This document shows, one piece after another, positions 10,399-28,985 of a stretch of 64,000 nt of DNA; position 1 is the stretch's first letter; every line of letters starts with the position of its first letter. Under the pieces are notes generated by a model. The model was not told the DNA's origin. It saw only the letters and a program-made list of their open reading frames with translations, and ran no database searches. The stretch spans positions 1 to 64,000 of the forward strand of contig JAJYOK010000002.1 of NCBI GenBank assembly GCA_021796215.1, given 5' to 3'. Position numbers and translations under genes: made by a program. The stretch comes from Bacteroidota bacterium. GTDB lineage: Bacteria; Bacteroidota; Ignavibacteria; UBA10030; UBA8401.

Positions 10399-12231
10399 TT
10401 ATCGTTCCAGCATCATGAACACCGCATCAACTCTTCCGAGCGGCGCGGAGATTTGCACGCCCGCCACTGACGATTTGATCTGCTCGTACGTTTCCTTTGC
10501 GATTGCAACGCCTTCGGCAAAACCTTCTTCCTTCGACATTGTTTTTTTCATCCGCTCCATAATTTCCGGCGGCACGGAAGCACCCGGCACTTCGTTGTTC
10601 ATGAATTCCGCATTGCGGTACGAGACAAGGGGCCAGATGCCGCAAATGAGCGGGATTTTGACGTGTTGAATTCGCTTCATGAATTTTTCAAGAATCTTCA
10701 AATCGAAGACCGGCTGCGTGATCATATATTCCGCGCCAGCTTCTATTTTCCAATCCAGGCGGCGAAGCTCTTCATCTAAGTTGATCGCACCGGGATTGAC
10801 ACCGACACCGACGCAAAATCCGGTCGGATCGCCGATGGGATTTTTCGCAAGATCAAGTCCATGATTAAGGCGGTTGATAAGATTCGTCAAACCGATTGCG
10901 TCAACATCAAACACCGCAGTCGCGTCAGGATAATTTCCCAACTTCGGCGGGTCGCCGGTGATGGCAAGAATGTTCCGCAACCCAAGCGCCCACGCGCCAA
11001 GCAAATCCGATTGCATGCCGATGGCATTTCTATCGCGGCACGCGAAATGCAAAACGGTTTCGATACCGACCGTCTGCTGGATCAGCACTGCCATTGCTAA
11101 CGCGGACATGCGAGCCGACGCGCGGGGACCATCGGGAATATTGATCGCGTCAATTCCGTGCTGGTACGCTTTCCTTGCCTTCTCGATTTCTTTTGCCGGG
11201 GAAACACCTTTCGGTGAAACGAGCTCGACAAGCGTCACAAACTTTTTATTAGCAAGCATGTTGGCGAAGCGCGATTTCTCATTCAACGGAACGAGTCTCA
11301 CCTCTTCCGGACTTTCAACCTTCAGTTCGGCGCTTTTCACATCCATTCGCTTTGCCGGTTGAAGTGCTTGCACTGCGCGGCGGATTGCGCGAATGTGCGA
11401 CGGATTTGTTCCGCAGCATCCGCCGACAATTGTAGCGCCGGTTTGAATGAACCGCTTCGCATATTCTGCCATATATTCCGGCGACGTCATATAAATATTC
11501 CTTCCGCCGAGGTTCATGGGAAGTCCGGCATTCGGTTGAACAGAAATCGGAAGGTCGGTCAATGCTTTAAGCTTCTCCAGCGCATCGAGCATCAGCTTCG
11601 GACCGACAGAACAATTCATTCCAATCACATCAACATGATACGGCGCAAGTTTTTCGATGAACGATTCGAGCGGCGCACCGCTCAGCAATTGTCCGTCGCT
11701 GTTGATCGTTACCTGCGCAATAATGGGCATGTCCGGATTCACTTCCCTTGCCGCACGGACAGCCTGAACCATTTCATCAACCAAAACAAACGTTTCAAAA
11801 ATTATCAGATCAACGCCGCCGTCAACCAATCCTTTGATCTGCTCTTTGAATGCTTCCTTCGCTTCGTCGTACGACAGCTTACCTAACGGTTCGATTTGCA
11901 CGCTCAGCGGTCCAACGGAACCGGCAACGAGCGTTGTTTCTTTTGCAACTGATTTCGCAAGCTGTGCACCTTTGAGATTGATCTCGTACACTTTATCTTC
12001 CAATCCTTGCTGAGCCAGCTTAAAACGATTTGCGCCGAATGTATTTGTTTCGATGACATCGGCACCAGCGTTCACATAGTCGCGGTGAACTTCCTTCACC
12101 AAATCCGGCTGCACCAAATTCAATTCATCGTAACAGCGGTTGATGAAGACGCCTTTTTCGTAGAGATATGTACCAACACCGCCGTCGAAAACAATAACAT
12201 CATTCTGCAGCCGTTCACGAAATGTTTTCAT
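10399..12231 (-). CDS. Bifunctional homocysteine S-methyltransferase / 5,10-methylenetetrahydrofolate reductase
   Basis: This 610-residue fusion has two catalytic halves. Residues 1-290 are a homocysteine methyltransferase barrel: DGGVGTYLYEKG, ETNTFGANRFKL, GMNCSVGP and the zinc-binding GGCCGTNPSHIRAI. Residues about 320-600 are a MTHFR-type FAD barrel: LVELVSPKG, HFACRDRNAIGMQSDLLGA, LAITGDPPKLGNYPDA, ITQPVFD and CGIWPLVSYRNAEFMNNEV. The same architecture occurs in proteins annotated as YitJ. It links reduction of methylene-THF to methylation of homocysteine. The ATG at 12231 follows AAGGACTG closely. Only 28 bases separate it from the thioredoxin-like gene upstream, so it may be the last gene of that transcript. 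Confidence 0.93.
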   Translation of the reverse strand: MKTFRERLQNDVIVFDGGVGTYLYEKGVFINRCYDELNLVQPDLVKEVHRDYVNAGADVIETNTFGANRFKLAQQGLEDKVYEINLKGAQLAKSVAKETTLVAGSVGPLSVQIEPLGKLSYDEAKEAFKEQIKGLVDGGVDLIIFETFVLVDEMVQAVRAAREVNPDMPIIAQVTINSDGQLLSGAPLESFIEKLAPYHVDVIGMNCSVGPKLMLDALEKLKALTDLPISVQPNAGLPMNLGGRNIYMTSPEYMAEYAKRFIQTGATIVGGCCGTNPSHIRAIRRAVQALQPAKRMDVKSAELKVESPEEVRLVPLNEKSRFANMLANKKFVTLVELVSPKGVSPAKEIEKARKAYQHGIDAINIPDGPRASARMSALAMAVLIQQTVGIETVLHFACRDRNAIGMQSDLLGAWALGLRNILAITGDPPKLGNYPDATAVFDVDAIGLTNLINRLNHGLDLAKNPIGDPTGFCVGVGVNPGAINLDEELRRLDWKIEAGAEYMITQPVFDLKILEKFMKRIQHVKIPLICGIWPLVSYRNAEFMNNEVPGASVPPEIMERMKKTMSKEEGFAEGVAIAKETYEQIKSSVAGVQISAPLGRVDAVFMMLER

Positions 12232-19588: not shown

Positions 19589-19846
19589 ATGAGTAAAAAA
19601 CGCTCTCGGGAGAGAGAGAGACTCGCAAATAAGGACGTAGTGTTCTGTACGGAATGCGGTATTTCACTGATAAATTTTTGCGTTTCAGACGGCGTCAATG
19701 ATGTAAACGCCATAAAACAAACGCTTGCTCAATGCAAGCTAAGCGGCAAATTTACCGGTAAGTTCTGTGCAAAACTTTTTATTTCTGACGATGATATGCT
19801 TGATAAAATGTGGGAAGAGCTTCAACCGCCAACTGATGACGAGTAG
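19589..19846 (+). CDS. Small orphan protein, unknown function
   Basis: This 85-residue protein begins with a strongly basic stretch (SKKRSRERERLANK), then has FCTECGISLINFC with cysteines at C-x2-C-x8-C, a further two cysteines in the middle, and an acidic end (EELQPPTDDE). The ribosome site GGAAGGG is 6 bases upstream of the ATG, which argues for a real gene. The cysteines could bind zinc but do not form a standard ribbon. It is divergent from the T9SS substrate, with 197 bases between. I recognise no family. Confidence 0.6.
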   Translation: MSKKRSRERERLANKDVVFCTECGISLINFCVSDGVNDVNAIKQTLAQCKLSGKFTGKFCAKLFISDDDMLDKMWEELQPPTDDE

Positions 19847-20826: not shown

Positions 20827-20841
20827 TGGCACGATTCTTTA
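20827..20841 (+). promoter_or_regulatory. Candidate sigma54 (-24/-12) promoter, weak -12
   Basis: TGGCACG (20827-20833) is an exact -24 element. The -12 position, ten bases after GG, reads TTTA instead of TTGC. Transcription would begin about 20850, some 30 bases ahead of the ATG at 20880. An NtrC-type activator is encoded 6 kb downstream in the same direction. Confidence 0.4.
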
Positions 20842-20879: not shown

Positions 20880-21581
20880 ATGGTGTTCATCCTATGTATC
20901 ATCACCGCGATAGTGATTCTTACAATAGAAATTTTGCTGAAGCGGGATCGAAAACAAGTTCCCGCAAAAAATTTACCTCTTCAATTCAACACTGTTTCTG
21001 ACATTGTTCTTCAACGATTTTTCCATCCCGGACACATGTGGGCACTCGAACAAAAAGCGGAAGTCGTTGCAATCGGCGCGGATGACTTTGCACAGAAATT
21101 TATCGGAACAATCGAGAACGTTCAACTTCCAAAAGCAGGCTCAGCAATCCGACAGGGTGAAGAACTTGTGACGTACCAACATAAAGATAAAATTCTCAAA
21201 CAGGTAGCACCAATTTCAGGTGTCGTCATTGCAGTGAATAAAAAACTCAATCGCTCCCCGTCTCTGATTAACGATTCCCCACTCGAAAAAGGATGGATTG
21301 CAAAAATCTCTCCCACGGACTTTACCCGTGAAAAAAGAAATTTATTGAAGGGAAGCACAGCCGAGCGATGGCAAGATGCAATACGCGCTGAACTCATACA
21401 TTTTTTTGCGCCGCAACATTATGCCTTACAGGACGGTGGAAACATCATCAGTAATTTCAGCGATAATGTCAGCGATGAAGAGTGGCTTCGCTTGCAAAGC
21501 GAATTTTTTCCCTCAGTTTATTCAGTCGCACAAAAACAATCAACTAAGCAATCTTTACAGGCAACATCGCTATCAACCTAA
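20880..21581 (+). CDS. Membrane-anchored GcvH-like protein 1, no lipoyl lysine
   Basis: This 233-residue protein begins with one hydrophobic helix (residues 2-20, VFILCIITAIVILTIEILL). A glycine-cleavage H-protein fold follows at about 50-150: HMWALEQKAEVVAIGADDFAQ, QLPKAGSAIRQGEEL, VAPISGVVIAVNKKL, then SPLEKGWIAKISP. Aligned without gaps to E. coli GcvH, the lipoylated lysine is an aspartate here. The start at 20880 has AAAGGAG 6 bases upstream; an ATG at 20862 precedes that ribosome site. It is the first of three GcvH-like genes around a HybA/HybB-like pair. The single helix leaves open which side of the membrane the domain faces. Its role is unknown. Confidence 0.8.
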   Translation: MVFILCIITAIVILTIEILLKRDRKQVPAKNLPLQFNTVSDIVLQRFFHPGHMWALEQKAEVVAIGADDFAQKFIGTIENVQLPKAGSAIRQGEELVTYQHKDKILKQVAPISGVVIAVNKKLNRSPSLINDSPLEKGWIAKISPTDFTREKRNLLKGSTAERWQDAIRAELIHFFAPQHYALQDGGNIISNFSDNVSDEEWLRLQSEFFPSVYSVAQKQSTKQSLQATSLST

Positions 21582-21597
21582 TATAGGAGACATCACA

Positions 21598-22278
21598 ATG
21601 GTCGCTTTATTTGTCATTGGAACTATTATTACATGCGTTCTTATCGAATACGTTCGCGGGCGGACTAAACAGAATGCGCTTGCGTTACAATCTACGCACA
21701 CACGGAACGGCCAACACGATCGTTTTCTTCTGCCGCGCGGATATTTTCTCAGTAAATATCACGCATGGGCAGAGCTTCTTTTTTCCGGAAATGTTCGAAT
21801 CGGAGCAGATGATTTTGCTCAGAAAGTTGTCGGAACAATTGATGCCGTCGAAGTTGTACCTCAAGGCTCTGAAATCAAAAAAGGCGAGCCGCTTTTTCAA
21901 ATTAGACAAGGCAATCGAACGTTAAGCTTTCCTTCACCATTTTCCGGGAAGGTTTCGCAGATTAACTCGCAGCTGCTCGATTCTCCATCGTTGCTGAAAG
22001 AAGCACCATACTTTGATGGATGGATTGCGGTGATTGAACCGACAAATTTTTCCCCGGAACTAAAACTTCTCACTATTGCAGACGAAGCAGCGCAATGGCT
22101 CAGAGCAGAAATCAGCCGTTTCCGAAATTTCCTGAACAGTGAACGAACAGTCAACACAATTGTTCCTGCAGGAGCGACGCTTCTTGACGGCGGAATACCG
22201 ATGAACGGCGTGCTTCAAACAACAAACGATAAAACATGGAAAGAATTTGAACAAATGTTCATCCACAACTCCAATTGA
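21598..22278 (+). CDS. Membrane-anchored GcvH-like protein 2, no lipoyl lysine
   Basis: This 226-residue paralogue of the preceding gene has the same layout: helix (residues 2-18, VALFVIGTIITCVLIEY), then a GcvH-like domain from about 50 (HAWAELLFSGNVRIGADDFAQ, VVPQGSEIKKGEPLF, PSPFSGKVSQINSQ, APYFDGWIAVIEP). The lipoyl-lysine position is an asparagine. The ATG at 21598 has AGGAG 7 bases upstream and begins 17 bases after the previous stop; the frame is open further left but overlaps gene 1. The two genes share about 100 residues of clear similarity, so they arose by duplication and presumably work together. Confidence 0.8.
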   Translation: MVALFVIGTIITCVLIEYVRGRTKQNALALQSTHTRNGQHDRFLLPRGYFLSKYHAWAELLFSGNVRIGADDFAQKVVGTIDAVEVVPQGSEIKKGEPLFQIRQGNRTLSFPSPFSGKVSQINSQLLDSPSLLKEAPYFDGWIAVIEPTNFSPELKLLTIADEAAQWLRAEISRFRNFLNSERTVNTIVPAGATLLDGGIPMNGVLQTTNDKTWKEFEQMFIHNSN

Positions 22279-22338
22279 TCGCTGTAGCAAAGTGAGCGGA
22301 GTATTTACTGATCTTGAACTTTCACCGGAGATTTAATT

Positions 22339-23130
22339 ATGCAACATTATGGCATTCTTATTGACACAACTCTCTGCATCGGCTGCTACGCATGTGAAGA
22401 AGCTTGCGCTGATCGTTGGGGATTTCCCAAAACCGATGTTCACGAACTTTCATCAACAAAAAATACAACAGTGCTGACAGTCAACGACGCGTACGTTCCG
22501 CGGATGTGTATGCACTGTGACGTACCAACCTGTGCATCCGTCTGCCCGGTCGGAGCGCTGGAAAAAACTGACGAGGGACCTGTCACGTACGACGTCAGTA
22601 AATGCATCGGCTGCCGTTACTGCATGCAGGCATGTCCTTTTGATGTTCCCAAATACCAATGGAACAGCGCAAACCCAAAAGTCTCGAAATGTGACATGTG
22701 CCATGATAGAATTGTGGCAGGCAAAAAACCGGCATGCGTCGAAGCATGCCCGGCGGAAGCGCGCGTATTCGGAACATTGGAAGAGCTAAAGCAAATTGCC
22801 GAAAAACGTTTCGCAGAAAATCCGGCGAATTATTTTCCACAAATTTACGGCATCAAAGAAGCTGGCGGAACATCAATCCTCTACCTCGCATCAAAACCAT
22901 TTGCTGAGATTGGATTGAAGGGTAATCTGCCGGATCACCCTCTTCCCTCGCTCACATGGGCTGTGATGTCGAAGATTCCGAACTACGTTTTCTGGGGCGG
23001 CACATTGTTAGGCGGCATTTACTGGATAACGAATCGCAGAAAAGAAGTGCGTGATCTCGAAGCAAAACTTGAACAAATGGAAAACACCAATCCAAGTCGT
23101 CGAATTTCAAATCATGAACAAGAAAATTGA
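22339..23130 (+). CDS. HybA/PsrB/DmsB-like protein with four 4Fe-4S clusters
   Basis: This 263-residue ferredoxin-like subunit has four cysteine sets: CIGCYACEEAC (13-23), CMHCDVPTCASVCP, CIGCRYCMQACP and CDMCHDRIVAGKKPACVEACP. This is the fold of electron-transfer subunits of hydrogenase-2 (HybA) and polysulfide or DMSO reductases. A hydrophobic helix near residue 215-230 (YVFWGGTLLGGIYWI) resembles the HybA tail anchor. No Tat signal is present, so the clusters would lie on the cytoplasmic side unless exported with a partner. The next gene encodes the matching quinone-interacting membrane subunit. No catalytic hydrogenase or molybdopterin subunit is adjacent. Confidence 0.9.
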   Translation: MQHYGILIDTTLCIGCYACEEACADRWGFPKTDVHELSSTKNTTVLTVNDAYVPRMCMHCDVPTCASVCPVGALEKTDEGPVTYDVSKCIGCRYCMQACPFDVPKYQWNSANPKVSKCDMCHDRIVAGKKPACVEACPAEARVFGTLEELKQIAEKRFAENPANYFPQIYGIKEAGGTSILYLASKPFAEIGLKGNLPDHPLPSLTWAVMSKIPNYVFWGGTLLGGIYWITNRRKEVRDLEAKLEQMENTNPSRRISNHEQEN

Positions 23131-23140
23131 GGAAACTACT

Positions 23141-24358
23141 ATGACATCATTGTTGAAAACCCCCTTGGGAAAAATTCATCGAATGACATTTTGGACCGCC
23201 GTCTTTTGGATTATTATGGCACTGGGTTTGACTGCAACGGTTATTCGCTTTACACAAGGACTCGGTGCAGCGACTAATCTCAGCGACAAATTTCCGTGGG
23301 GCTTTTGGATCGGCTTTGATGTGCTGTGCGGTGTCGGTCTCGCTGCCGGTGGATTTGTTGTTGCTGCGGCAGTGTACATTTTTCACCTCGATTACTATAA
23401 ACCAATTCTACGACCCGCAGTACTGACGGCTTTTCTCGGTTATGTTTTAGTTGTTGTTGCATTACTGTTCGACCTTGGACGTCCGTGGCAAATTTGGCAT
23501 CCGTTGATCATGTGGAATCCACACTCGGTCATGTTTGAAGTCGCATGGTGTGTCATGTTTTACACGACTGTGCTCGCACTTGAATTCAGCCCTATCGTGT
23601 TTGAGCGGTTTAAGCTGGAAAAGCCGCAAAAAATTCTTCATGCAATCATCGTTCCGCTGGTTATTTTAGGAGTTATCCTTTCTTCACTTCATCAATCATC
23701 TTTAGGGTCACTGTATTTGATAGTACCGGAAAAAGTTTATCCTTTATGGTATTCATCAAATCTCCCCTATCTCTTTTTCTTAACGGCTATCGCCGTCGGC
23801 CCTGCGATGGTAACAATTGAATCGTTCCTGAGTTCGCGTACATTCAGGCGCGAAATTGAGCTGCCGATTCTTTCGAAGTTAGGAAAAGTGACTGCCGTCG
23901 CTCTATCCGTTTATCTCGTATTGAAAATAGAAGATGTCGTCAACGATCACCTTTGGTCGTACGTTTTCACTTTCAATCTTGAAGGATTGTTGTATTGGGC
24001 AGAAATTATTTTAGGTGCTGTTGTGCCAATCATCCTGCTCTCTTACAAAAAAACAAATAGGAGCAAAAAAGGACTTTTCTATTCCGCTTTATTTGTTGTG
24101 CTCGGTTTCATTTTGAATCGTATGAATCTCAGTGTTACCTCCATCGAACACTATACCGGTGCACATTATTTTCCAAGCTGGATGGAAATTTCAATTACGC
24201 TAATGATTGTGGCTCTTGGATTTGCCGGATTTAGATTAGCAGTAAAATATCTTCCGGTGTTTCCAAAAGAAAAAGAAGCAAACGAGCCGTTAAGCAAAAC
24301 ATTCGATGTGGTTGAATTTATCGGCGACAAACACGAGCACACTACCGTGCTAAATTAG
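23141..24358 (+). CDS. HybB/NrfD-like integral membrane quinone-interacting subunit
   Basis: This 405-residue polytopic protein has about ten hydrophobic helices. It matches HybB, the quinone-interacting membrane subunit of hydrogenase-2 and a member of the NrfD/PsrC superfamily: FTQGLGAATNLSDKFPWGFW, GFDVLCGVGLAAGGFVVAAA, ALLFDLGRPWQIWHPLIMWN and SLHQSSLGSLYLIVPEK. It should move electrons between the quinone pool and the 4Fe-4S partner. The ATG at 23141 follows GAGGAA by 7 bases and the previous stop by 10, so the pair is tightly coupled. The frame is open further upstream, overlapping the ferredoxin gene, but the family starts close to the chosen ATG. Confidence 0.9.
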   Translation: MTSLLKTPLGKIHRMTFWTAVFWIIMALGLTATVIRFTQGLGAATNLSDKFPWGFWIGFDVLCGVGLAAGGFVVAAAVYIFHLDYYKPILRPAVLTAFLGYVLVVVALLFDLGRPWQIWHPLIMWNPHSVMFEVAWCVMFYTTVLALEFSPIVFERFKLEKPQKILHAIIVPLVILGVILSSLHQSSLGSLYLIVPEKVYPLWYSSNLPYLFFLTAIAVGPAMVTIESFLSSRTFRREIELPILSKLGKVTAVALSVYLVLKIEDVVNDHLWSYVFTFNLEGLLYWAEIILGAVVPIILLSYKKTNRSKKGLFYSALFVVLGFILNRMNLSVTSIEHYTGAHYFPSWMEISITLMIVALGFAGFRLAVKYLPVFPKEKEANEPLSKTFDVVEFIGDKHEHTTVLN

Positions 24359-24395
24359 GCGAAGTTTTTACAACACTTATGGAATCGAGGGCGTC

Positions 24396-25253
24396 ATGGC
24401 GCCAACAACAAAACATCACGTCATACCGGAAGGTGAATTACATTGCATTTGGATGGAAGCGGGCTTAGCAGATTATAAGCTGTGCGATAAAGACTATTTG
24501 TGTGAAGAATGCGCTTTCGATTCTGATATGAGGAAATTAAAATCGGAAATGGACTTTCCGGCCGCTTCCGAAGAAAAAACTGTTGCGAAAAAAAACCGCC
24601 GCGTGTACGCTGACATTCTTCAAACTAAGGCAGACTTGTCTGCCGGTAACCAAGCTGCAAACGATTATTTTTTACACTTGTGCGATGAAGAAACACGCAC
24701 AATTCTCAAACAGCCTATACCAGGTGATAGAACATATTTTCGCAATCACACATGGCTGAAATTTGAAACGCCATCTGTAATCACAATGGGCATTGACCAC
24801 GTCGGTGCCCATTTCTTACAACAAATGGTGAGCGTTGTCCTGCCCGAAACGCCGACACAAATAGAGCGAAACAGTCCGTTTGTTTGGATTGTCTTCCGGG
24901 AAGGCACAATTGGCCTTCGCTCCGGCGTTCAAGGAACAGTAATGGAAACAAATGGAGAACTGCTCGATCGTCCAATGCAGTTGACAAATGACCCTTACAA
25001 TGCTGGTTGGATTCTTAAAATTTCGGTTTCAGCAAGCGACAAGCAGATAGGATACACACACAATAAAAATTTATCCGTCCTTAGAACAGAACTTGCCGGA
25101 ATAAAATCAAATTTCTTGGTAAGTTTTCAGCATGAACAGGCGCACGCAAGAACAGAATACGATGGCGGCAAACCGCTGAGAGCAATTCACGAAATCATAG
25201 GTGAGAAAAAATATTTTGAAATCGCCAACAACTTCCTTTCGCGTAATACCTGA
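24396..25253 (+). CDS. Soluble GcvH-like protein 3 with N-terminal cysteine motif, no lipoyl lysine
   Basis: This 285-residue protein opens with a compact cysteine motif, CIWMEAGLADYKLCDKDYLC followed by EEC and AFDSDM (about 17-46). The pattern C-x13-C-x5-C-x2-C suggests a metal or cluster site. Residues about 118-215 are GcvH-like (HTWLKFETPSVITMGIDHVG, NDPYNAGWILKISVS), but the lipoyl position is glutamate. No membrane segment is seen. A hairpin repeat-like segment (24629-24644) encodes part of the linker (TKADLSAGNQ). It follows the HybB-like gene by 37 bases. Unlike the other two, it is probably cytoplasmic and could contact the iron-sulfur subunit. That is inference. Confidence 0.75.
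   Translation: MAPTTKHHVIPEGELHCIWMEAGLADYKLCDKDYLCEECAFDSDMRKLKSEMDFPAASEEKTVAKKNRRVYADILQTKADLSAGNQAANDYFLHLCDEETRTILKQPIPGDRTYFRNHTWLKFETPSVITMGIDHVGAHFLQQMVSVVLPETPTQIERNSPFVWIVFREGTIGLRSGVQGTVMETNGELLDRPMQLTNDPYNAGWILKISVSASDKQIGYTHNKNLSVLRTELAGIKSNFLVSFQHEQAHARTEYDGGKPLRAIHEIIGEKKYFEIANNFLSRNT
24629..24644. repeat. Perfect hairpin inside the third GcvH-like gene
   Basis: GGCAGAC-TT-GTCTGCC is a perfect 7+7 hairpin preceded by CTAA, reading in frame as KADLSAG. The CTAAGGCAGA lead is the same, in the same reading frame, as the repeat inside tsaB (60397-60423), so it may be a diverged member of that family. Confidence 0.4.
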
Positions 25254-25382: not shown

Positions 25383-25397
25383 TGGCACAGTAGTTGC
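25383..25397 (+). promoter_or_regulatory. Sigma54 promoter of the sensor kinase operon
   Basis: TGGCACA-GTAG-TTGC has the GG (25384-25385) and GC (25396-25397) pairs separated by exactly ten bases and matches the sigma54 consensus at all key positions. Transcription should begin about 25409, only about 11 bases before the ATG at 25420, so the kinase message would be nearly leaderless. Confidence 0.75.
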
Positions 25398-25419: not shown

Positions 25420-27075
25420 ATGAACTTCACGCATCTTCTTGCATTCAGATTATTCCTCATTATTCTCGTTGTGATGCTTATTGGAACTGCAGTCTTCACA
25501 ACGCTCAGTGTTGACCGTCAATCTGATCAACACATGCGAGATGTTGTTGGCGGGGCTACACGCGTTGCAGATATCATTAAGCGCTCGACCAACTATAGCA
25601 TGATGTTGAACCGACGCGAAGATATTTATCACATCATAAATACCGTGGGTCACGAGCCCGGCATTGAAGCAATCCGCATCTATAATAAAAAAGGGGAAAT
25701 TACTTTTTCGTCTGTTGAAGGTGAAGTTGGAAAGACCGTGAATGTCAATGCGGAAGCCTGCAATGTCTGTCATGTTGCCGGCAAATCGCCCGCCCCGGCG
25801 AATGGACACGAATTAAGCCGCATTTTTCTCTCTCCAAAAGGGTATCGCGTGCTTGGTTTGATCACACCGATTCGCAATGAAGGAAAATGTGCAACCGCCG
25901 ACTGCCATGCACATTCGTCATCACAGACCGTGCTCGGAGTTCTCGATGTCATGATGCCTCTCGCTGATCTTGATAAAAACCTCGCTGACGAAAAACATGC
26001 TGAGTACATGAATGGTTTGTTAATGCTTGGATTGATGACCGTCTTTACAGCGGTGTTCATTTGGTTTGTCGTTAACATTCCTGTGAAAAATCTAACAAAA
26101 GGAACACAGGAAATTATAAAAGGGAATCTTGACCATCGTATTCCGGTGCGTTCAAAGGACGAAATTGGCCGGCTCGCTGCTTCCTTCAATCAAATGACCG
26201 ATGAAGTGAAACGCGCCCACGACGAATTAACGCAGTGGGCACAAACTTTGGAAGAACGGGTTGCACAAAAAACGGACGAGCTTCAGCGCGCTCAAATAAA
26301 TATGGTTCAAATGGAAAAAATGGTTTCACTCGGAAAACTTGCGTCAACTGTCGCTCACGAGTTAAACAATCCGTTGGAAGGCGTGCTCACCTACGCAAAG
26401 CTTTTGAAGCGCTCCGTGAAAGCCGGCATCTTGAACGAAGAAGAAGCGCACGAGATACAAAGCGAACTCTCCATTATTGCCGATGAAACCGCCCGCTGCG
26501 GAAATGTTGTGAAAAATCTTCTTCTCTTTTCTCGGCAGAAAGTCGGTGCATTTCAAGAATCCGACATACGCGTCGCAATAGAAAATTCATTGAAGTTGAT
26601 TGATCACCATTTACACATTCATAACATTGCGCTCCAAACATCGCTTCCCGATGACAAGTTATCACTTGTCTGTGATATCCAACAAATTGAACAGGCACTG
26701 CTCGCAATTGAAATCAATGCCGTCGAAGCAATGCCAGAAGGTGGAACGCTGACTTTGAGCGCGCAACACGATGCAGTAAACAAAAACGTGAACATTAGTA
26801 TTAAGGATACCGGCAGCGGCATCAACGATGAAGACCTGCCACACATCTTCGAGCCATTCTTCACGACTAAAGAAAATGGAAAAGGCACTGGCTTAGGGCT
26901 TGCTGTTGCCTATGGCATTATTGAGCGGCATAATGGAACCATCGAAGTACATTCTAAACAGCATCAAGGTTCAGAATTTACTATCACTCTCCCGATTAAG
27001 AAAGCACCTATTGAAGATGGCACTGAAAACGCCAGTGAACAACCAAGAATCATTCAACCGACAACTACCGTGTGA
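25420..27075 (+). CDS. Sensor histidine kinase with periplasmic haem-c motifs
   Basis: This 551-residue kinase has a first membrane helix at residues 8-28, a periplasmic domain of about 170 residues and a second helix at 198-219. HAMP follows (220-272), then a short coiled coil (273-300), HisKA with the phospho-acceptor His313 in VAHELNNPLEG, and HATPase (NAVEAMPEGG, DTGSGI, GTGLGLAVAYGI). The periplasmic domain carries CNVCH (114-118) and CATADCH (157-163), so it may bind one or two c-type haems and sense redox state or a gas. Four-base overlap (GTGA) with the response regulator gene marks them as a pair. It sits behind a sigma54 promoter, which suggests self-amplification. Confidence 0.9.
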   Translation: MNFTHLLAFRLFLIILVVMLIGTAVFTTLSVDRQSDQHMRDVVGGATRVADIIKRSTNYSMMLNRREDIYHIINTVGHEPGIEAIRIYNKKGEITFSSVEGEVGKTVNVNAEACNVCHVAGKSPAPANGHELSRIFLSPKGYRVLGLITPIRNEGKCATADCHAHSSSQTVLGVLDVMMPLADLDKNLADEKHAEYMNGLLMLGLMTVFTAVFIWFVVNIPVKNLTKGTQEIIKGNLDHRIPVRSKDEIGRLAASFNQMTDEVKRAHDELTQWAQTLEERVAQKTDELQRAQINMVQMEKMVSLGKLASTVAHELNNPLEGVLTYAKLLKRSVKAGILNEEEAHEIQSELSIIADETARCGNVVKNLLLFSRQKVGAFQESDIRVAIENSLKLIDHHLHIHNIALQTSLPDDKLSLVCDIQQIEQALLAIEINAVEAMPEGGTLTLSAQHDAVNKNVNISIKDTGSGINDEDLPHIFEPFFTTKENGKGTGLGLAVAYGIIERHNGTIEVHSKQHQGSEFTITLPIKKAPIEDGTENASEQPRIIQPTTTV

Positions 27076-28436
27076 ACGCCATGAATGGAAAACCGACTAA
27101 ACAAAACAGCATCTTGATTGTTGACGATGAGATTGTTGTCCGCGATTCGCTTTCAAAGTGGTTCAAGCAGGACAACTACCGCGTTGATTCGGCAGAAGAC
27201 GCGGCTCACGCTTTGAAAAAAATGGGTTGCGGCCCGTGGGATATCATTCTGCTCGACATCAAGATGCCGGGCATGAGCGGATTGGAATTGCAGCAGCGTC
27301 TTCGCGAAATCGATCCCGCCGCAACGATCATTATGATTACCGCGTTTGCTTCCGTTGAAAGCGCTGTGCAGGCTTTGAAAGAAGGCGCGTTCGATTACGT
27401 GACCAAACCGGTTGACCCTGATCATCTTTCTCACCTTGTTCAAAAAGCAATTCAGCATAAGAAACTTGCGGATGAAAATGCACAACTTCGCCAGCACATT
27501 TCTGAAATAATGAGAAGTGAAGACATCGTTGGCAGCAGCCCGCAAATGAAAAAAGTGATTGAGATGGCAAAAACCGTCGCACAGACCGACACGACGGCAA
27601 TGATACGCGGTGAAAGCGGGTCGGGGAAAGAAATTATCGCGAGGGCAATTCACGCAAACAGCGCACGACGGTATTTTCCAATTATTGCTGTGAACTGCGG
27701 CGCCGTTCCTGAAACACTTCTTGAAAGCGAACTTTTCGGACACGAAAAAGGCGCGTTCACCGGTGCGCAATACCGCCGAAAAGGAAAATTTGAAATGGCT
27801 GACGGCGGAACCATTTTTCTTGATGAGATCGGAACTATCTCACCAAAGATGCAAGTGCAATTGCTTCGCGTCATCGAGACAAAACAATTCACGCGCGTCG
27901 GTGGAAATGAAGTCATCGCAAGCGACTTCCGCATCATCTGCGCAACCAATCACGATCTTGAAGCCGCTGTAAAAGCGGGCACATTCCGTGAAGACCTGTA
28001 CTACCGGCTGAATGTCTTTACAATCTTTATACCGCCATTACGTGAAAGAAAAGCCGATATCCCGTTACTTGCACGCCATTTCCTTACGCGCTATACGATT
28101 TCAATGAATAAACCTGTAAAGGATATTTCTCCTGAAGCAATGGACATGATGGTGCGTTACGACTGGCCCGGCAACGTGCGTGAATTGGAAAATGTTATAG
28201 AGCGTGCAATGGTGCTTGCAGCGCCGCCATCAATTCGTCCGGACGATTTGCCTTTTCAGCTCATCCCGAAACACCATGCTCCTGCGGATGAATCAATTGA
28301 TGCTGTCGAGAAAACACACATTGAACATGTGCTTGCAAAATATGGGTGGAATATTACCCATTCAGCGCGCATTTTGGATATTGATCGAGTAACGTTGTAC
28401 AACAAAATTGCTAAGTACGGATTAATAAAACCGTGA
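27072..28436 (+). CDS. NtrC-family sigma54-dependent response regulator
   Basis: This 454-residue activator has a receiver domain (about 13-128; phospho-acceptor Asp62 in LLDIKMPG, TKPVD switch). An AAA+ domain spans about 150-390, with Walker A GESGSGKE at 180-187, the sigma54-contacting GAFTGA loop at 227-232, Walker B GGTIFLDEIG and the arginine-rich sensor segment YDWPGNVRELENVIERAM. A Fis-type helix-turn-helix ends the protein (WNITHSARILDIDRVTLYNK). It would be phosphorylated by the adjoining haem-motif kinase and switch on sigma54 promoters, of which two candidates lie upstream. The GTG at 27072 overlaps the kinase stop; an ATG at 27081 is the alternative start. Confidence 0.95.
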   Translation: MNAMNGKPTKQNSILIVDDEIVVRDSLSKWFKQDNYRVDSAEDAAHALKKMGCGPWDIILLDIKMPGMSGLELQQRLREIDPAATIIMITAFASVESAVQALKEGAFDYVTKPVDPDHLSHLVQKAIQHKKLADENAQLRQHISEIMRSEDIVGSSPQMKKVIEMAKTVAQTDTTAMIRGESGSGKEIIARAIHANSARRYFPIIAVNCGAVPETLLESELFGHEKGAFTGAQYRRKGKFEMADGGTIFLDEIGTISPKMQVQLLRVIETKQFTRVGGNEVIASDFRIICATNHDLEAAVKAGTFREDLYYRLNVFTIFIPPLRERKADIPLLARHFLTRYTISMNKPVKDISPEAMDMMVRYDWPGNVRELENVIERAMVLAAPPSIRPDDLPFQLIPKHHAPADESIDAVEKTHIEHVLAKYGWNITHSARILDIDRVTLYNKIAKYGLIKP

Positions 28437-28439
28437 GCA

Positions 28440-28985
28440 ATGTCTTCTCTTCTTCTTGTACCAATTCCTCCGGTGGAGATTGAGCACATTTTGTTGCTCC
28501 GCCCGGCATTACAGTCAACATTGAATATTGAAACAGCGATAGACGAAAGCATTCATCTCGATATCGCTGCCGCATTCGATGCCTACCGGAATCAATACAA
28601 TTCATCAGTTTTGCTGACATCGCTGCAAGAACACTTTCCGCATTACAATGGGAAAATTCTCGGCATCAGTAAGGTTGATTTTTTTGTTCCGGTGCTTACC
28701 TATGTATTCGGAGAGGCGCAACTGAACGGAACTTACGCAGTTGTCTCAACATATCGGTTGAGCGATACGCTGTACGGGTTACCTGAAAACACGCAGCGAT
28801 TTATAGAACGTTTTAGAAAAGAAGCTGTGCATGAACTTGGACACACCTTTGGATTGTACCATTGCCTTGACTACGATTGTGTTATGCATTCATCAACCAC
28901 CGTCGAAGACATTGATATCAAAGGAGACAATTTTTGTCCGGCATGCGGCAAAATAGTAAAAAGACATTTACACGCGCGGTTATAA
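28440..28985 (+). CDS. Archaemetzincin family metalloprotease
   Basis: This 181-residue zinc protease is recognisable by the extended motif HELGHTFGLYHC, followed by C-VMH and later CPAC. That is the HExxHxxGxxxC...CxM...CxxC pattern that defines archaemetzincins, with both a catalytic zinc and a structural zinc. No signal peptide is present, so it is cytoplasmic. The ATG lies 3 bases after the regulator's stop, placing it in the two-component operon. Its last 6 bases overlap the convergent flippase gene. Natural substrates of the family are unknown; its link to the redox system is only positional. Confidence 0.9.
   Translation: MSSLLLVPIPPVEIEHILLLRPALQSTLNIETAIDESIHLDIAAAFDAYRNQYNSSVLLTSLQEHFPHYNGKILGISKVDFFVPVLTYVFGEAQLNGTYAVVSTYRLSDTLYGLPENTQRFIERFRKEAVHELGHTFGLYHCLDYDCVMHSSTTVEDIDIKGDNFCPACGKIVKRHLHARL

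Follow-up and report, generated by a model that had tools for sequence, protein, structure and literature searches.

Lysine-less relatives of GcvH as possible adaptors between an NrfD-type module and a di-haem kinase

A window of 64,000 nucleotides (the whole stretch of DNA analysed) from a Bacteroidota bacterium (Ignavibacteria; assembly GCA_021796215.1, contig JAJYOK010000002.1, positions 1 to 64,000) contains three genes, here called genes 1, 2 and 3, whose products have the fold of GcvH, the glycine cleavage H-protein. That the lipoyl lysine is absent from all three is well supported. The preferred reading, to which a probability of roughly 0.45 is given, is that they are lipoate-free adaptors of a conserved family, which would couple an NrfD-type membrane module to a predicted haem-binding sensor kinase encoded beside them. 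This reading is built on observations from sequences and structural models, namely the loss of the lysine, the fold, conservation throughout the family, the gene setting, a shared DGG motif and the fusion of GcvH domains to receiver domains in relatives. The three genes and the codons at their lipoyl position are as follows.

20880-21581, plus strand: gene 1, one N-terminal membrane helix, GcvH-fold domain with Asp103, DGG motif (Pfam GCV_H 3.4e-22)
21598-22278, plus strand: gene 2, membrane helix, GcvH-fold domain with Asn106, DGG motif (Pfam GCV_H 2.9e-20)
24396-25253, plus strand: gene 3, N-terminal four-cysteine motif, GcvH-fold domain with Glu169, DGG motif (Pfam GCV_H 1e-15)
21186-21188, plus strand: lipoyl-lysine codon of gene 1, Asp (GAT)
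21913-21915, plus strand: lipoyl-lysine codon of gene 2, Asn (AAT)
24900-24902, plus strand: lipoyl-lysine codon of gene 3, Glu (GAA)

Gene 1 starts at the ATG at 20880; a longer open reading frame runs from 20862. All three genes exceed the Pfam GCV_H cut-off, and none reaches the cut-off of the gcvH equivalog model TIGR00527 (66.3, 53.3 and 57.9 bits for genes 1, 2 and 3, against 115.85).

A preliminary description of the DNA had placed Asp, Asn and Glu at the lipoylated lysine of genes 1, 2 and 3 by ungapped alignment, and this placement was borne out. From the "KG" turn to the "AP.SG" block, the alignment of all three genes is gap-free, both with the genome's own canonical GcvH (L001) and, in a PDB profile alignment, with E. 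coli GcvH (3a8i). AlphaFold models of genes 1 and 3, built from relatives, are confident over the GcvH domain, and in Foldseek both match solved H proteins with a template modelling (TM) score of about 0.9. The model of gene 1 has a mean predicted local distance difference test (pLDDT) score of 88, with values of 94-98 in the barrel. In its secondary-structure string, from which the placement of the turn was taken, a two-residue turn, Lys102-Asp103, lies between strands 95-101 and 104-109. Since the turn consists of these two residues only, Asp103 sits at the tip of the hairpin. A register shift restoring a lysine is ruled out by the gap-free anchors together with this turn, and no lysine moved into the lipoyl position in either the gene 1 model or the profile alignment.

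The loss extends to the family as a whole. The comparison is based on 165 collected GcvH domains, to which canonical ones from further phyla were added. Lysine occupies the lipoyl position in all 37 distinct canonical domains, as opposed to 6 of 127 relatives of genes 1-3 (Fisher p ~8e-31), and none of these six carries it within the E-x-V-K lipoylation motif. The glutamate of this motif is invariant in the 37 canonical domains. In the lysine-less family the lipoylation residues Glu63 and Lys66 (alignment columns) are randomised, and the lipoyl column is variable, at rank 71 of 109. The neighbouring structural residues are conserved, as had been claimed (Gly29, Trp18, Asn83, Pro74 and Trp102, again as alignment columns).

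Phylogenetic analysis places the canonical domains (37 rows) on one side of a branch with a Shimodaira-Hasegawa-like approximate likelihood ratio test (SH-aLRT) value of 96, in a tree made by a quick method from 103 columns, which are few, after removal of loop columns. Because all canonical domains keep the lysine, the family does not, and the canonical domains group apart, the lysine was most simply lost in one ancestral event. For the loss in three paralogues together, as first proposed, a single inherited state is the simplest account, and three separate losses are unneeded, given the split between canonical domains and family in the tree.

The lysine-less family is under purifying selection and is not decaying. 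Measured against a genome of the same genus, the ratio of nonsynonymous to synonymous substitution rates (dN/dS) amounts to 0.10 in gene 2, 0.21 in gene 3 and 0.07 in the canonical GcvH. The window genome encodes five lysine-less members (genes 1-3 and two in a second cluster, at C14) and one canonical GcvH. One weak member, C14:463478-464053, was missed by a whole-genome Pfam search and found with a profile of the family. The nearest relative of gene 1 is a copy at L036 with 48% identity, and gene 1 diverged from its paralogue gene 2 long ago and is no recent duplicate.

A further feature of genes 1-3 is a motif C-terminal to the GcvH domain, with the consensus GxT[LM]xDGG.

21432-21440, plus strand: DGG of gene 1; D185, G186 and G187 invariant in 49 relatives
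22186-22194, plus strand: DGG of gene 2; conserved in the alignment of relatives
25161-25169, plus strand: DGG of gene 3; conserved in the alignment of relatives

The DGG is invariant in one alignment (A3) and nearly so in another (A4). It is carried by most family members and is missing from canonical GcvH and from relatives fused to a receiver domain. It is also found on small single-helix proteins of ~70-115 residues that end in TMxDGG (L054:15441-15743 and L051:7598-7858 on the minus strand, L078:6661-7011 on the plus strand, and others at L116, L118, L084 and L076). These come first in the operon wherever their position was checked, and the one tested belongs to no Pfam family. Because it occurs on such proteins as well, the DGG tail is probably an independent recognition element.

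Genes 1-3 are not identical in their N-terminal parts. In genes 1 and 2 basic residues come after the N-terminal helix, so that the GcvH domain is predicted to be cytoplasmic. Gene 3 has no membrane helix and carries four cysteines with the spacing C-x12-C-x5-C-x2-C.

24444-24512, plus strand: cysteine motif of gene 3, CIWMEAGLADYKLCDKDYLCEEC, candidate Fe-S or Zn site; C17, C30, C36 and C39 invariant in 40 relatives

Along the window come, in this order, gene 1, gene 2, an iron-sulphur (FeS) protein, an NrfD-type subunit, gene 3, a di-haem kinase, an NtrC-type regulator and an archaemetzincin (peptidase family M54). No gcvP or gcvT lies beside genes 1-3 in the window.

22339-23130, plus strand: iron-sulphur protein of the HybA/HmcB type, 16 Cys, no twin-arginine translocation (Tat) signal; Fer4_11 2.9e-23, HmcB 1.1e-70 and HybA 4.9e-55, the last two below equivalog cut-offs
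23141-24358, plus strand: NrfD-type integral membrane subunit of the HmcC/HybB kind; NrfD 1.6e-22, HmcC 4.9e-102 and HybB 4.3e-95, the last two below cut-offs
25383-25397, plus strand: perfect sigma-54 core TGGCAC-N5-TTGC, ahead of the kinase gene
25420-27075, plus strand: sensor histidine kinase with HisKA, HATPase_c and HAMP; periplasmic part with CNVCH (25759-25773) and CATADCH (25888-25908)
27072-28436, plus strand: NtrC-type sigma-54 response regulator; Response_reg 3.1e-31, Sigma54_activat 1.2e-71
28440-28985, plus strand: archaemetzincin (M54), PF07998 4.3e-23, complete active-site motif HELGHTFGLYHCLDYDCVM...CPAC

HmcB/HmcC and HybA/HybB are the best models for the FeS and NrfD pair, and the equivalog cut-offs are not reached (238 of 420 bits for HmcB, 342 of 550 for HmcC). 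The cysteines of the FeS protein suffice for four clusters. Its orthologue in the same genus likewise has 16 cysteines and no Tat signal, and all relatives checked have at least 15. The protein begins right at the cluster domain, and no Tat-bearing partner is seen in the gene cluster. FeS relatives in such clusters also lack the signal, and the charges near a weak C-terminal helix, where one is present, fit a periplasmic FeS domain. There is no cytochrome or hydrogenase partner in the window cluster and no catalytic subunit beside FeS and NrfD. A catalytic subunit hidden upstream in relatives was considered and rejected: the extra genes found there encode a sortilin/BNR protein, a phosphoesterase and a DeoC-type aldolase, none of them redox enzymes.

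All 41 relatives checked retain both c-type haem motifs of the kinase, and kinase and regulator form a two-component system with a predicted c-haem sensor. The archaemetzincin has the motif HExxHxxGxxHCx4CxM...CxxC and exceeds the Pfam cut-off, which makes it a putative peptidase. Twice in the genome, at 28440-28985 and at G000:C14 ~466920-467489, an archaemetzincin with a complete active-site motif is grouped with a di-haem kinase and an NtrC-type regulator as a constant trio.

Sigma-54 sites recur in relatives. They precede 11 of 90 kinase or GcvH genes, compared with 4 of 432 other genes (p ~2e-6), and the reversed pattern gives 0. The genome-wide regulon, with four strict sites against two for the reversed control, is too small for use. 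By eye, the TGGCAC half of a further site can be seen before gene 1 (20827-20841), with the downstream GC missing.

Two other features of the window touch none of these genes. Upstream, at 19589-19846, lies the gene of a small protein whose cysteines form two pairs (FCTECG...; ...FCAKLF); it is conserved in a genome of the same family (L036:7435-7719), where it also lies upstream of the cluster, and has only weak, sub-threshold zinc-ribbon matches. The open reading frame at 10399-12231 is, by eye, a possible fusion of homocysteine methyltransferase and methylenetetrahydrofolate reductase.

The full or nearly full gene set recurs in about seven phyla: Bacteroidota/Ignavibacteriota, Gemmatimonadota, Acidobacteriota, Syntrophobacterales, Nitrospinota, Calditrichota and Phycisphaerales. 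M54 is missing from the set in Nitrospinota and in Phycisphaerales. Together with the dN/dS values and the kept structural residues, this conservation in a constant gene setting supports the earlier proposal that the fold was adopted for a non-lipoyl function.

An FeS protein lies within 7 kb of 130 of the 141 lysine-less domains, and NrfD within the same distance of 131. The arrangement occurs a second time in the same genome. The cluster at G000:C14 ~457800-468800 (L054, L160) encodes a Qrc-like complex with the trio of histidine kinase, M54 and response regulator beside it. The complex, whose proteins include QrcB/C/D-like ones, comprises a QrcA-type cytochrome scoring above the cut-off, a QrcB-like molybdopterin protein, FeS and NrfD, together with two GcvH proteins of the lysine-less kind and a small DGG protein. 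A third NrfD belongs to an ACIII-like locus without lysine-less GcvH, kinase, M54 or regulator. Both non-ACIII NrfD complexes of the genome, which are of different types, thus have lysine-less GcvH, kinase, M54 and regulator.

Some relatives consist of a receiver domain fused to a lysine-less GcvH domain (L049:9246-10400 and L049:10493-11281, both on the minus strand, and members at L046, L051 and L087). The receivers look intact, and one of the proteins is membrane-anchored. These genes adjoin a Tat-type FeS protein, NrfD, a multihaem cytochrome and a di-haem kinase. The GcvH fold may here be read as the output domain of response regulators.

The arrangement also varies. At L077 and L059 a GcvH pair occurs with kinase, regulator and M54, and no FeS or NrfD lies nearby; at L113 a pair occurs without FeS, NrfD, kinase, regulator or M54. 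In two genomes (G055 and G251) the trio of kinase, regulator and M54 stands apart from the GcvH-FeS-NrfD operon, and both units are kept.

M54 follows the DGG-type proteins closely. Among 149 genomes of the class, it is present in 61 of 63 DGG-type genomes compared with 5 of 86 others, DGG status being defined by a profile score of E < 1e-50 and by one locus read directly. Of the five, three are clusters cut by contig ends and one has an unrelated M54. M54 is present in none of the 12 genomes with receiver fusions only, and at the Phycisphaerales locus L083 both DGG and M54 are absent. Because the genes are linked, this co-occurrence amounts to association and not to contact.

In the proposed mechanism, the products of genes 1 and 2 would sit in the membrane by their helix and expose the GcvH domain to the cytoplasm, and that of gene 3 would be soluble and carry its four-cysteine site. 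All three would dock on the quinone-reactive FeS/NrfD module and on the adjoining di-haem kinase and NtrC-type regulator. Phosphorylation and sigma-54 transcription would thereby be made to follow the redox state of the quinone or cytochrome pool. The DGG tail would be a shared docking or processing signal, for which M54 is the leading candidate partner. We infer this adaptor mechanism: that the proteins dock physically, which way the signal runs, what the DGG tail binds and that M54 is linked. It is supported by the recurrence of di-haem kinase and NtrC regulator with GcvH-like genes across phyla, by the receiver fusions, by the loci L077 and L059, by the two non-ACIII NrfD complexes of the genome, by the co-occurrence of DGG-type GcvH with M54 and by the sigma-54 sites ahead of kinase or GcvH genes.

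Several observations weigh against it. The genes are linked, so their co-occurrence is no proof of contact. The presence of FeS and NrfD at most loci would suit a role as subunits equally. NrfD genes are found elsewhere in the L077 and L059 genomes, and a split operon is therefore conceivable there. Lastly, M54 is missing from two genomes outside the class (G302 and G305) in which a DGG or DGG-like member is present.

The main rival, which is somewhat less probable, is that genes 1-3 encode plain accessory subunits of the FeS and NrfD complex, which would assist its assembly or place an unlinked redox partner, and that the two-component system only controls transcription. The proximity of FeS and NrfD to nearly all lysine-less domains, the cysteines kept by the FeS protein in the relatives checked, the sigma-54 sites ahead of the operon in some relatives and the lysine-less GcvH of the Qrc-like complex all agree with this. 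It fits less well with the receiver-GcvH fusions, with the loci where a GcvH pair is accompanied by kinase, regulator and M54 in the absence of FeS and NrfD, and with a window module that has no adjacent catalytic subunit.

The adaptor proposal can be widened to a widespread redox-signalling system, in which lipoate-free GcvH-fold adaptors would join a Hmc/Hyb- or Qrc-like NrfD module to a di-haem kinase, GcvH would be an output or docking domain in relatives, and archaemetzincin would recognise the shared DGG tail. As a whole, this wider form is doubtful.

It is rather improbable that genes 1-3 encode mainly regulated substrates of archaemetzincin, with DGG as the cleavage or recognition site and proteolysis turning the adaptors off. 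Such a role would explain why DGG-type GcvH and M54 co-occur so strongly, why both are absent from the receiver-fusion-only genomes and from L083, and why the DGG tail also stands alone on small membrane proteins. However, the genes are linked, the DGG could equally bind NrfD, FeS or the kinase, and G302 has the motif without M54 (its assembly may be incomplete).

As had been pointed out, gene 1 keeps lysines close to Asp103; they lie on either side of it. That Lys102 or Lys104 is lipoylated and the protein still a carrier is nevertheless very improbable. Relatives do not share Lys102, at position -1, and only the nearest ones retain a basic residue at +1; genes 2 and 3 have no equivalent, and the glutamate of E-x-V-K is lost. 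Shifting the lysine by one residue abolishes the lipoylation of lipoyl domains. Finally, the idea of decaying GcvH duplicates, for which only the missing lysine speaks, is refuted by open frames, the low dN/dS of genes 2 and 3, invariant non-lipoyl residues and DGG, and conservation across some seven phyla.

Genes 1-3 resemble GcvH (PF01597, TIGR00527) in fold and structural residues. They differ in having no lipoyl lysine or E-x-V-K, and in the added membrane helix or cysteine motif and the DGG tail. A GcvH paralogue recruited outside glycine cleavage is LbpA of Hdr-like sulphur oxidation, which has a conserved lipoylated lysine (PMC6067878). Genes 1-3 lack this lysine and have no Hdr-like neighbours, but FeS, NrfD, histidine kinase, response regulator and M54 instead. 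Two other GcvH-like families are named as standing outside glycine cleavage, not_gcvH (TIGR03077) and GcvH_rel_desulf (NF045810); genes 1-3 score at best 57.7 of 144 and 33.6 of 150, respectively. Lipoyl-like folds without a cofactor are also seen in unmodified barrel-sandwich domains (the N-terminal part of NqrA, HlyD/CusB), although these are not of the GcvH family and have other partners. NqrA_N gives a weak, sub-threshold Pfam match to the window genes.

The FeS and NrfD pair is like that of HmcBC/HybAB and QrcABCD, from which the window differs by the lack of a catalytic subunit, a multihaem cytochrome and a Tat signal on FeS. In MBNT15, a module of multihaem protein, FeS and NrfD has been described that lacks a molybdopterin subunit (PMC9386147). 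For archaemetzincins, PMC3427221 describes the biological importance as little known. The window M54 has a complete active-site motif, like the archaemetzincins treated in PMC3427221 and PMC4681839.

The NrfD papers searched do not mention GcvH-like partners, and none of the papers found joins a GcvH-like protein with NrfD. In a search mostly outside subscription journals, no relevant paper joins GcvH with receiver domains, or archaemetzincin with a haem kinase or NrfD setting. The lysine-less family, the DGG motif, the receiver fusions and the M54 link are undescribed in the literature searched, and the family is a relative of GcvH in fold and not a GcvH.

Genes of this family fall under the name "glycine cleavage H-protein", which may mislead pathway predictions. 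If the proposed role is true, a lipoyl-carrier fold would have been kept across phyla without its carrier residue and brought together with a haem kinase and a quinone module, which would be a new use of the fold. Archaemetzincins would likewise gain a testable setting and a physiological partner.

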